DNA of 64,000 bases, from assembly GCF_003987315.1 (NCBI RefSeq), contig NZ_PIPI01000004.1, positions 1 through 64,000 on the forward strand, read 5' to 3'. Positions 748 through 55,886 of the stretch are shown here, piece after piece. Under the pieces are notes generated by a model that did not search any database, was not told the DNA's origin, and saw only the letters and a list, made by a program, of their open reading frames with translations. The position numbers and the translations under genes are program-made. This stretch comes from Aliidiomarina haloalkalitolerans (GTDB lineage Bacteria; Pseudomonadota; Gammaproteobacteria; Enterobacterales; Alteromonadaceae). Within the stretch, counting starts at the first letter, position 1. Every line of letters starts with the position of its first letter.

Positions 748-777
748 TTGAAACGTTCGCAGTTCGCACTTTATAAG
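748..777 (+). promoter_or_regulatory. Candidate sigma-70 promoter of the TonB receptor
   Basis: TTGAAA and TATAAG, each 5 of 6 to consensus, are separated by 18 bp. Transcription would start near 784, placing the MetJ-like boxes about 25-40 nt downstream. A second possible -10 (TATAAG, 838-843) lies downstream of the boxes; if it is the real one, the operator would cover the -35 region. Confidence 0.5.
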
Positions 778-808
778 ACTTTGGTCTATATAAGATGCTA
801 ATAGTCTT

Positions 809-824
809 GTATGTCTAGACGTCT
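809..824. promoter_or_regulatory. MetJ-like operator (two tandem met boxes)
   Basis: A perfect met box AGACGTCT (817-824) is directly abutted by an 8-mer with a 5 of 8 match (GTATGTCT, 809-816). This matches how MetJ binds: cooperative dimers on tandem 8-bp boxes. The same arrangement, perfect box plus abutting GTCT half-box, lies upstream of metK in this window (55871-55886). It sits 53 bp before the receptor start and could also affect the divergent deaminase. Confidence 0.6.
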
Positions 825-876
825 ATTTGCTAAGTTGTATAAGAAATGAATCATGTCCATCACAAGGGAAAACACT

Positions 877-3279
877 ATGAAAACGAAGTTAATTACTACC
901 GCCATCGCGAGCGCATTGGCGTTGCCCACAGCGGTCGCCTGGGCACAAGATAGTGGCGAATCGGTTGATGTGGCAGCAGAAAGGATTCAAGTGATTGGTT
1001 CACGATTAAGTGTCCGCACAGCAACAGAGGGAAGCGCGCCAGTCGATATTATTACCGGTGAAGATCTTATTGCCGCAGGCTTCACCGAAACAGCAAAAGC
1101 ACTGCAGTATGCAGTCCCAAGTTTTAACTTCCCATCATCGTCAATTACAGACGGATCAGACGCCGTGCGACCTGCGTCATTACGCGGCTTGTCACCTGAT
1201 CACACGCTGGTATTAATTAACGGCAAGCGCCGACATGCCAGCGCCTTGGTTCACTTGAATGGTACGACCGGCCGCGGCAGCTCCAACGTCGACTTAAACG
1301 CAATTCCAATTTCAGCGATAAAACGTATCGAAGTACTGCGTGACGGTGCAGCGGCTCAATATGGTTCTGATGCGATTGCCGGCGTTATCAACATTGTGTT
1401 GAAAGACAATTCAGAGGGTGGAGATCTCAGCTTTAGTGCTGGCCAAACTTATGAAGGTGACGGTGAGCAGTTCAAACTTCATGGTAGTGTTGGCTTCAAT
1501 TTAAATGACCGTGGTGCGTTTGTAATTGCTGCTGAGTATCATGACAAAGCGCGTACAAATCGAGCAGGTCTAGATCCACGTCAACAATATCCATTAATCG
1601 ATGGCCAACCGGATCCACGCGAGCAGACGTTTAATCGTAAAAGCCATCATGTCGGCGATGCCGAATTTGAAAACATCGCAATCTTCTTTAATACCGATTA
1701 CCAGCTCGACAATGGCAGCCTATACGCTTTTGGTGGATTTAGTGAAAGACGCACAAAATCGGGCGCTTTCTATCGCCGAGCTATCGACGATCGAAATCTG
1801 ATCGAAGTTTATCCGGACGGCTTTCTACCTCTACTAAGCCCTGACACCAATGACATATCACTAGCGGCAGGGTATCGTTTCACCGTGAGTGAGTGGGACG
1901 CGGACCTTTCAGTTATCTACGGTGAGTCAGAGTTTAATTATCGGCTCGAGAATTCGCTCAATGCCTCTCTTGGCCCAAGTACGCCAACGGAATTTGACGC
2001 AGGAACCCTTGTACATGACGAGTTGAACGTCACGTTCGAAGTGAGCCGCTTGATTCCGTTCTACAACTACTCTGACCTAGCGGTTGCCTTTGGTGTTAGT
2101 TACCGCGAGAACGGCTATCAGGTTAAAGCTGGCGAACCAGCTTCCTATGAAAATGGCGGATTCGACAATCGCCCAGCGGGCAGCCAAGGTTTTACTGGCT
2201 TCCGCCCAGACTCGGAAGTGAACGAGTCTCGTGACAACACCGGCTTGTACGTTGAGCTGGAAAATATGTTGACCGAAAACTTCCAGTGGGGCGCAGCGCT
2301 TCGCTATGAAGACTATTCTGACTTCGGTAGCAACACCAGTTGGAAATTGTCGGGTCGCTACGAGTTCTCGCCGAACCTAGCCATTCGTGGTGCCACTAAC
2401 ACCGGCTTCCGTGCACCGAGCGTGCAGCAGCTCTATTTCACCAATATCTCGACCCTTTTTGTGAACCGTGATGGTGAGTTGGTTCCTGAACAGTCAGGCA
2501 CGTTTAACAACATCAGCTCGGTAGCACGAGAGCTTGAAATTGGAAACTTGCGTCCTGAAGAATCGCAAAGCTATAGCTTTGGCGTGGTCTGGAATGGTGA
2601 TAACGGCTTGTCTCTTACCGTTGACGCTTATCAAATTGAAATTGATGATCGCATCATTCTTTCAAGTTCACTCATTCCAAGTGATTCGCCAGCGGTTGCT
2701 GACGCTTTAGCGGCAGCAGGGGCAGATAATGCGCGATTCTTTATTAACGCGGTTGATACGACGACGCGGGGGCTTGATATTGTTGTCGCCCAACGTTTCG
2801 ATTTAGGTGCTTACGGCAGCTTGCGAGCGCAAGCTGCTTATGGCTACAACGAAACAAAAGTCGATGCCGTGAACCTACCAAGCATTCTCGATGGTCTCGA
2901 CGATAAGCTATTTGATAACGTTGAGCGGACGCGGATGACACGTTCAGTTCCGCGCAACAGCGCAACCTTATCGATGACACACAGCTACGAGAAATGGACG
3001 AACCATGTCGCCTTTAGCTACTTTGGCGACTATATCTTAGAAAATAACGCAGGTGTGCGCACTAAGTTCAGTGGCAAATGGATTGCCGACGTTTCAACAC
3101 GCTATCAATTTACCGATAACCTAGCGTTTAAGTTTGGCGTCCAGAACTTGTTCGACACATACCCTGATGAACAACTGCCACAGAACCAATTTAACGGCAT
3201 TTTCATTTACCCGAATACGAATGCACCATTTGGTTTTAATGGCGGTTATTACTACGGTGAGATTACTTATCGCTTCTAG
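877..3279 (+). CDS. TonB-dependent outer-membrane receptor
   Basis: An 800-residue TonB-dependent transporter. Residues 1-23 form a signal peptide ending AVAWA before Gln-Asp. A TonB-box-like stretch (ERIQVIGSR) follows, then a plug domain with typical LRGLSPDHTLVLINGKR and VLRDGAAAQYGSDAIAGVINI motifs, and a long 22-strand barrel ending in GEITYRF with a terminal Phe. Start 877 is chosen over 853 because AAGGGA lies just ahead of it and the signal peptide begins there. The ligand cannot be read from sequence. The MetJ-like operator suggests a compound linked to methionine or cobalamin economy, which is inference. It is a single-gene unit with its own terminator. Confidence 0.93.
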   Translation: MKTKLITTAIASALALPTAVAWAQDSGESVDVAAERIQVIGSRLSVRTATEGSAPVDIITGEDLIAAGFTETAKALQYAVPSFNFPSSSITDGSDAVRPASLRGLSPDHTLVLINGKRRHASALVHLNGTTGRGSSNVDLNAIPISAIKRIEVLRDGAAAQYGSDAIAGVINIVLKDNSEGGDLSFSAGQTYEGDGEQFKLHGSVGFNLNDRGAFVIAAEYHDKARTNRAGLDPRQQYPLIDGQPDPREQTFNRKSHHVGDAEFENIAIFFNTDYQLDNGSLYAFGGFSERRTKSGAFYRRAIDDRNLIEVYPDGFLPLLSPDTNDISLAAGYRFTVSEWDADLSVIYGESEFNYRLENSLNASLGPSTPTEFDAGTLVHDELNVTFEVSRLIPFYNYSDLAVAFGVSYRENGYQVKAGEPASYENGGFDNRPAGSQGFTGFRPDSEVNESRDNTGLYVELENMLTENFQWGAALRYEDYSDFGSNTSWKLSGRYEFSPNLAIRGATNTGFRAPSVQQLYFTNISTLFVNRDGELVPEQSGTFNNISSVARELEIGNLRPEESQSYSFGVVWNGDNGLSLTVDAYQIEIDDRIILSSSLIPSDSPAVADALAAAGADNARFFINAVDTTTRGLDIVVAQRFDLGAYGSLRAQAAYGYNETKVDAVNLPSILDGLDDKLFDNVERTRMTRSVPRNSATLSMTHSYEKWTNHVAFSYFGDYILENNAGVRTKFSGKWIADVSTRYQFTDNLAFKFGVQNLFDTYPDEQLPQNQFNGIFIYPNTNAPFGFNGGYYYGEITYRF

Positions 3280-54660: not shown

Positions 54661-55803
54661 TTACAGAGAGGCTAAAATAGCGTCTACTTTATCGGTTCGC
54701 TCCCACGGGAACTCTTCGCGACCGAAGTGGCCATACGCTGCAGTCGGCAGGTAAATTGGGCGCTCGAGGTCAAGCATTTTTAAAATTCCGTAAGGACGCA
54801 AATCAAAGTGCTCGCGCACTAAACGAATGAGTGTTTCCTCGTCGTATTTGCTGGTACCAAAGGTTTCGATACTAATGGATGTCGGCTCAGCAACACCAAT
54901 TGCATACGAAACTTGCAGCTCTAAACGCTCCGCTAAACCAGCGGCAACTAAGTTCTTGGCGACATAACGCGCTGCATAAGCGGCACTACGATCAACTTTC
55001 GATGGATCCTTGCCCGAAAACGCACCACCGCCGTGACGAGCCATTCCGCCATAGGTATCGACGATAATCTTACGACCCGTTAAACCACAGTCACCCATTG
55101 GCCCACCGATAACAAAGCGACCGGTTGGGTTGATATGGATTTTGGTTTCTTTGGTTAGCCACTCAGCCGGTAATACAGGCTGAATGATGTGTTCAAGCAC
55201 GCCGTCACGTAATTCTTGCAAGCTGACTTCCGGAGCATGTTGGGTGGAAAGCACGATGGCATCGATACCGACTGGTTTGCCATTGTCGTAAACGAAGGTG
55301 AGCTGGCTTTTCGCGTCAGGACGCAACCAGTCCAAACCAGCTTTACGCACTTCTGCTTGTCTTTGCACGAGGCGGTGCGAATACATAATTGGTGCAGGCA
55401 TGAGCTCTGCGGTTTCATTGGTGGCATAACCAAACATTAAACCCTGGTCGCCGGCGCCTTGATCTTCTGGACGCTCACGGTCAACGCCTTGATTAATGTC
55501 AGGAGACTGCTTACCAATTGCGTTTAATACTGCACAACTGTCAGCGTCGAAGCCCATGTCTGAGTGGACATAGCCGATTTTACGCACGGTGTCGCGAGTG
55601 AGTTCTTCAATATCAACCCACGCATTGGTGTTGATTTCACCGCCAACTAAAACCATGCCGGTTTTGACAAAAGTTTCGCAAGCCACACGGGCTTTTGGGT
55701 CTTGAGCGAGAATCGCATCAAGCACGGCATCAGAGATTTGATCCGCAATTTTATCAGGATGACCTTCTGACACAGATTCAGAAGTAAATACGTGACGAGC
55801 CAT
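54661..55803 (-). CDS. metK: S-adenosylmethionine synthetase
   Basis: A 380-residue enzyme making S-adenosylmethionine from methionine and ATP. Family signatures are [30 protein letters not shown] and [19 protein letters not shown]. Length and ends are standard. The gene is preceded by MetJ-type boxes (55871-55886), consistent with repression when SAM is plentiful, and is divergent from tkt. Confidence 0.98.
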
Positions 55804-55870: not shown

Positions 55871-55886
55871 AGACGTCTATCTGTCT
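55871..55886. promoter_or_regulatory. MetJ operator of metK
   Basis: A perfect met box AGACGTCT (55871-55878) abuts ATCTGTCT (55879-55886, 5 of 8), in the tandem 8-bp phase MetJ needs. It lies 68 bp ahead of the metK start. metK is a known MetJ target in gammaproteobacteria, which supports the call. Confidence 0.8.

Follow-up and report, generated by a model that had tools for sequence, protein, structure and literature searches.

The MetJ regulon of gammaproteobacteria, as described in the available portions of two papers (PMC3228920, PMC4239095), resembles that of the genus Aliidiomarina in having the MetJ protein, tandem 8-bp met boxes with the same motif, and core-type targets in common (metK, metY, metL, metT and msrA). 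In those same portions, no TonB-dependent receptor other than BtuB is named among the MetJ targets, whereas Aliidiomarina has two receptors, neither of them BtuB, that are preceded by met boxes. The first of these is encoded in the initial 64,000 nucleotides of contig NZ_PIPI01000004.1 of Aliidiomarina haloalkalitolerans, hereafter the window, and is the subject of the present analysis.

The candidate operator and its surroundings

The receptor gene (877..3279, plus strand) encodes a TonB-dependent receptor of 800 amino acids, in which both the plug (PF07715) and the beta-barrel (PF00593) domains score over their cut-offs. An alternative in-frame ATG is found at position 853; the start at 877 was preferred on account of the N-termini of the orthologues (MK...) and of a Shine-Dalgarno-like run, AAGGGAA, at 864-870. 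Upstream of the gene lies a two-box candidate MetJ operator, GTATGTCT-AGACGTCT (809-824, plus strand), made of a perfect met box, AGACGTCT (817..824, plus strand), and an abutting weak box, GTATGTCT (809..816, plus strand). The feature by which members of the regulon are recognized, a run of at least two abutting met boxes of 8 bp ahead of the gene, is therefore present, with one box perfect and the other weak. An earlier note on this DNA had described a perfect box plus an abutting half-box in the same geometry as in front of metK, and this is what is seen. The metK operator, AGACGTCTATCTGTCT (55871..55886, minus strand), precedes the gene for methionine adenosyltransferase (54661..55803, minus strand; TIGR01034, 636.8 bits against a cut-off of 309.4). 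Compared with a tandem pair of consensus boxes, each of the two operators agrees at 13 of 16 bases; in the orientation of the respective gene, the weak box comes first and the perfect one lies closer to the gene. Fifty-two bases separate the end of the perfect box (824) from the likely ATG of the receptor (877).

A sigma-70 consensus scan detected no promoter, and the promoter proposed here is therefore derived from the alignment of the regions upstream of the genus orthologues. In this alignment, read by eye, most rows seem to keep a −35 of the TTG type and a TA-rich −10; in the A. haloalkalitolerans sequence the putative motifs are TTGTAT (807..812, plus strand) and TAAGTT (831..836, plus strand). 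The 18-bp spacer between them would be mostly taken up by the operator, which sits within the spacer both in this genome (G000) and in a second genome of the genus, G005. With such a layout, SAM-bound MetJ would cover the spacer and block transcription of the receptor gene. When SAM drops, the receptor would be made along with metK, metY, metL and the methionine permease MetT.

The intergenic region is common to the receptor gene and to a divergent gene of the deaminase family (PF00383; 190..645, minus strand), and a similar minus-strand ORF occurs in G005, so that the operator could serve the deaminase gene rather than the receptor. We consider this extremely unlikely: the start of the deaminase gene is about 165 bp away from the site, that of the receptor gene only 52 bp, the site falls inside the apparent receptor promoter, and a site is also found in genome G007, where the upstream ORF is a different one. 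The deaminase-family gene stands between a 5S rRNA gene and the receptor gene in G000; in G003, G006 and G001 there is no minus-strand ORF of at least 80 amino acids in its place.

Strength and distribution of the site

The perfect 8-mer is by itself little proof of an operator: it occurs twice in the 64 kb, in the receptor and metK operators only, against an expectation of 0.56 copies, and two or more copies turned up in 14 of 100 shuffles of the window. A genome-wide count of 16-mers with at most three mismatches gave no excess (4 places, versus 7 for a reversed control pattern). Unlike these counts, a trained matrix does set the receptor site apart. The matrix, 24 bp wide, was trained on 37 genus sites, none from the A. 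haloalkalitolerans genome and none from TonB receptors, which precede metY, metK, msrA, metT, hom, metB, cysG or an SsuA-type gene and were picked among places with no more than three mismatches to the consensus. When scored with their own family left out, these sites range from 11.5 to 30.8. Within the window, the metK operator, which is also the best-scoring candidate of the genome, scores 29.2, the receptor site 19.1 and the next independent place 5.7. Chance sites scoring like the receptor's amount to 0.24 per 2.68 Mb by calculation and to 0.23 in a first-order simulation.

The earlier note had proposed that the site be ranked genome-wide with a MetJ weight matrix. An Infernal model built from the 37 training sites, which scored 150 of the 215 first-look candidates of the genome, placed the receptor site fifth (13.3 bits, E 0.24; the matches considered at E <= 1 are the best 8 of 9, both strands included). 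The four sites ahead of it belong to canonical-type MetJ targets, namely, from rank 1 to rank 4, metK, metT (C23:140480), the metJ/metL intergenic region (C27:63516) and metY (C1:763600). The receptor site is a weak example of its kind; among the 84 distinct places scoring at least 18 in the fetched DNA of the genus, it is the second weakest.

A close orthologue of the receptor (at least 73% identity) was found in 13 of 17 genus genomes, G002, G008, G009 and G010 being those without one. The orthologue of G011 is cut by a contig end, which leaves 12 with readable upstream DNA. Three of these are preceded by a site (G000, 19.1; G005, 20.8; G007, 24.8); the other nine have none, their best score being 1.1. 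As to conservation upstream of orthologues, on which the earlier note had made its proposal depend, two further orthologues carry sites, one of them in another lineage and at another position, and nine do not; conservation is not general.

The site is common to G000 and G005. Their intergenic regions are 66% identical, and the longest identical run, of 19 bp, lies over the operator (column-shuffle P 0.02). In G007, a site is found 12 bp before the ATG, not at the position of the G000 site. A tree of the receptors groups G000 and G005 with five boxless rows at 97/97, apart from G007; the forks around the G007 branch have 83-90% bootstrap. Since G007 falls elsewhere in the tree and has a stronger site at another position, two gains would explain this most simply. 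A single gain with several later losses is a possible alternative, as the forks around G007 are not strongly supported. The G007 site provides a useful check on the finding, for it was not used in choosing it.

A chance origin, by drift, of a weak two-box match without effect would account for several of these observations, including the nine orthologues of twelve without a site, the position of the receptor site at the low end of the scores, the E of 0.24 per genome and the lack of an excess in the mismatch count. It would fit less well with an operator placed in the putative promoter spacer, retained in G005 despite the divergence of the intergenic region, and met again in G007 independently of the choice of the finding; moreover, matrices with permuted columns reached 19.1 in any of the 12 upstream regions in only 3 of 2000 trials. 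We regard a chance match as quite unlikely and the operator at the receptor promoter as probably functional, by our own estimate.

Beyond the close orthologues, 80 homologue loci were collected, of which 69 were scored, 11 having been dropped because no ORF lay over the match; two of the 69 are genus members already counted. The sole candidate site among the 69 was in Rheinheimera, at 16.9, the next best score being 6.5. Sixteen further receptors (L046-L061) yielded only the Rheinheimera locus L052, at 16.9, which is the same site as L242, and the rest scored 7.1 or less. Inspection by eye of the neighbourhoods of 8 of the 80 loci revealed no consistent partner gene. In Rheinheimera sp. 1928-s, the receptor homologue is preceded, at a distance of about 1.8 kb and with one intervening gene, by an ORF for a PLP enzyme of Cys/Met metabolism (L224:1067-2230).

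MetJ and other met-boxed genes of the genus

The reading of the site as an operator calls for a metJ gene in the genome, as the earlier note had pointed out. One is present (PF01340, 178.6 bits; 1/1 genome), and metJ is found in all 17 genomes of the genus. The A. haloalkalitolerans protein aligns with E. coli MetJ (1cma) with an E value of 1.9e-45, and its KKITVSIP segment, which presumably holds the DNA-contacting strand, is identical. We infer that MetJ binds the receptor operator and represses the gene.

The 84 places scoring at least 18 are a census of fetched sites and not of genes, since loci were mostly fetched for having sites and only part of the Infernal hits was fetched; 69 of them precede the core genes metK, metY, metT, metL, metJ, msrA, hom or metB, and four precede sulfur-type genes (two lie before a single cysJ gene, the others before cysG or an SsuA-type gene). 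The remaining ones lie before TonB receptors (6), M14 carboxypeptidases (2), thioesterases (2) and an unnamed gene (1). Family models back the assignment of metK, metY, hom, the SsuA-type gene, the M14 peptidase, the thioesterase and the PF03553 antiporter called metT, the last being named after the NhaC-family MetT in the available portion of PMC3228920. The metL of G000 is an aspartate-kinase-type ORF scoring under the family cut-off, and the names msrA, metB, cysG and cysJ were read from the sequence, with no family call behind them.

Several of these places concern genes of other kinds. In G007, met boxes precede a cysJ-like (L104:1369) and a cysG-like (L104:5727) gene, so that sulfate assimilation may be under MetJ control in this species. 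Met boxes are also present before an M14 zinc carboxypeptidase gene in G010 (L106:3027) and before its homologue in G004 (L175:2460), as well as between a 4HBT thioesterase gene and a divergent small gene (L180:2675 and L177:2521, in G007 and G009; also L189, in G010). A met box of G015 (L114:2711) scores 31.5 and is located some 220-230 bp before a 709-aa ORF with no assigned family.

The second met-boxed TonB receptor is a different protein, of 871 amino acids, which is preceded by the highest-ranking met-box site in each of G004, G009 and G010 (L095:3495, L096:8349 and L097:7648). Its operator matches the consensus at 15 of 16 bases, scores 32.7-33.6 with the matrix and holds Infernal rank 1 in each genome. 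At E <= 1e-150, the protein was found only in these three genomes out of 32 searched, and it forms a separate clade on a long branch of the receptor tree. The BtuB model retrieved 19 other TonB receptors of the genus, and none of the 19 is preceded by a site (best score 1.7).

The earlier note had seen in the receptor a candidate member of the methionine/SAM regulon. The metJ gene, the fifth rank of the site and the two orthologue sites speak for this assignment, and the nine orthologues of twelve without a site speak against it; we propose the receptor as a new, lineage-specific candidate member of the known MetJ regulon. More tentatively, MetJ might have repeatedly captured TonB receptors in Aliidiomarina, resulting in SAM-controlled, energy-driven import of a methionine source through the outer membrane. 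The captures would then probably consist of two gains on the 800-aa receptor and one on the 871-aa receptor.

The cargo of the receptor and known systems

An AlphaFold model of the receptor computed from a 74-row alignment reached a pLDDT of 86.8, versus only 56.9 with a 13-row alignment. The best Foldseek matches of the 74-row model are known TonB receptors of several ligands, and the model names no cargo. In addition, 21 NCBIfam models match the receptor and none reaches its cut-off. The operator might be real and the cargo something other than a methionine source, a siderophore, haem or another ligand, the receptor having been drawn into the regulon for a different reason such as iron or sulfur demand during SAM shortage. 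Among solved folds and sequence profiles, siderophore receptors (PirA, PfeA, Cir) and BtuB do come nearest, and no gene seen in the neighbourhood of the receptor names a ligand. The siderophore-receptor sequence matches, however, lie mainly in the plug, a domain common to TonB receptors, and the met-boxed places of the genus precede core methionine-type genes in 69 of 84 cases and sulfur-type genes in 4 more, which makes a cargo unrelated to methionine somewhat unlikely in our judgement.

Cobalamin had been one of the ligands suggested by the earlier note. In the available portion of PMC3228920, btuB is reported to have met boxes in 48 of the 165 species having the gene, and BtuB is among the nearest folds of the present receptor. 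A cobalamin receptor under MetJ, like btuB of other gammaproteobacteria, appears very unlikely all the same. The MetH activation domain (PF02965) is found in none of the 17 genus genomes. The BtuB model TIGR01779 gives the receptor a score of 96.6, which does not reach the equivalog cut-off of 599.7, and gives a higher score, 259.9, also below the cut-off, to a separate BtuB-like receptor of the same genome (G000:C1:3456-5195), which has no met box upstream. Finally, no cobalamin riboswitch was detected in the window at the Rfam gathering threshold. With no MetH and with another BtuB-like receptor devoid of a met box, cobalamin is a poor guess; it was set aside on the MetH result, the BtuB profile, the separate BtuB-like receptor and the riboswitch search. 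What is left of the suggestion is methionine or another sulfur source, and it is this class of ligand that we infer.

PF02574 is likewise found in none of the 17 genomes, and the MetE-type family PF01717 only in G007 (1/17). Hence, 16 of 17 genomes are without all three methionine-synthase families searched, and met-boxed metY- and metL-type genes are present. That some relatives also appear to have this or another receptor under the repressor suggests that such receptors help to gather a methionine source, in a group mostly devoid of the usual methionine-finishing enzymes. According to the available portion of PMC3228920, Idiomarina lacks metE, metH and metF yet grows without methionine; methionine uptake need not, therefore, be essential. 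As the regulon includes a MetT-type permease, the most economical assumption is that the receptor serves as its partner at the outer membrane for a methionine source. The most likely cargo of the receptor, be it free methionine, a peptide containing methionine or some other organosulfur compound, would then cross the outer membrane to be used by MetT and peptidases. We thus favor, at roughly even chances, the explanation that MetJ has a genuine, lineage-specific operator at this site and that the receptor imports a methionine source under MetJ-SAM repression.

Marine bacteria have many TonB receptors, most of them with no known cargo. For the receptor studied here, the operator link to a SAM-sensing repressor points to a definite class of substrates that can be tested, and is relevant to the question of how Idiomarina and its relatives obtain methionine though the known methionine synthases are missing. 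If correct, our proposal would add to the methionine regulon a non-cobalamin TonB system, of a kind not found in the available portions of the literature searched; none of the literature matches listed names a non-BtuB TonB receptor under MetJ. What the Aliidiomarina receptor has in common with MetJ-controlled btuB is to be an outer-membrane TonB receptor with met boxes. It differs in that its site is near the ATG, no riboswitch was found, its score is far below the BtuB cut-off and its host genus is without MetH. Another likeness is with the HutC and HypR amino-acid regulons, for which, in the available portion of PMC5343134, the ligand class of an anonymous TonB receptor is deduced from the regulator; in Aliidiomarina, the regulator is MetJ and the implied nutrient would be methionine or sulfur.
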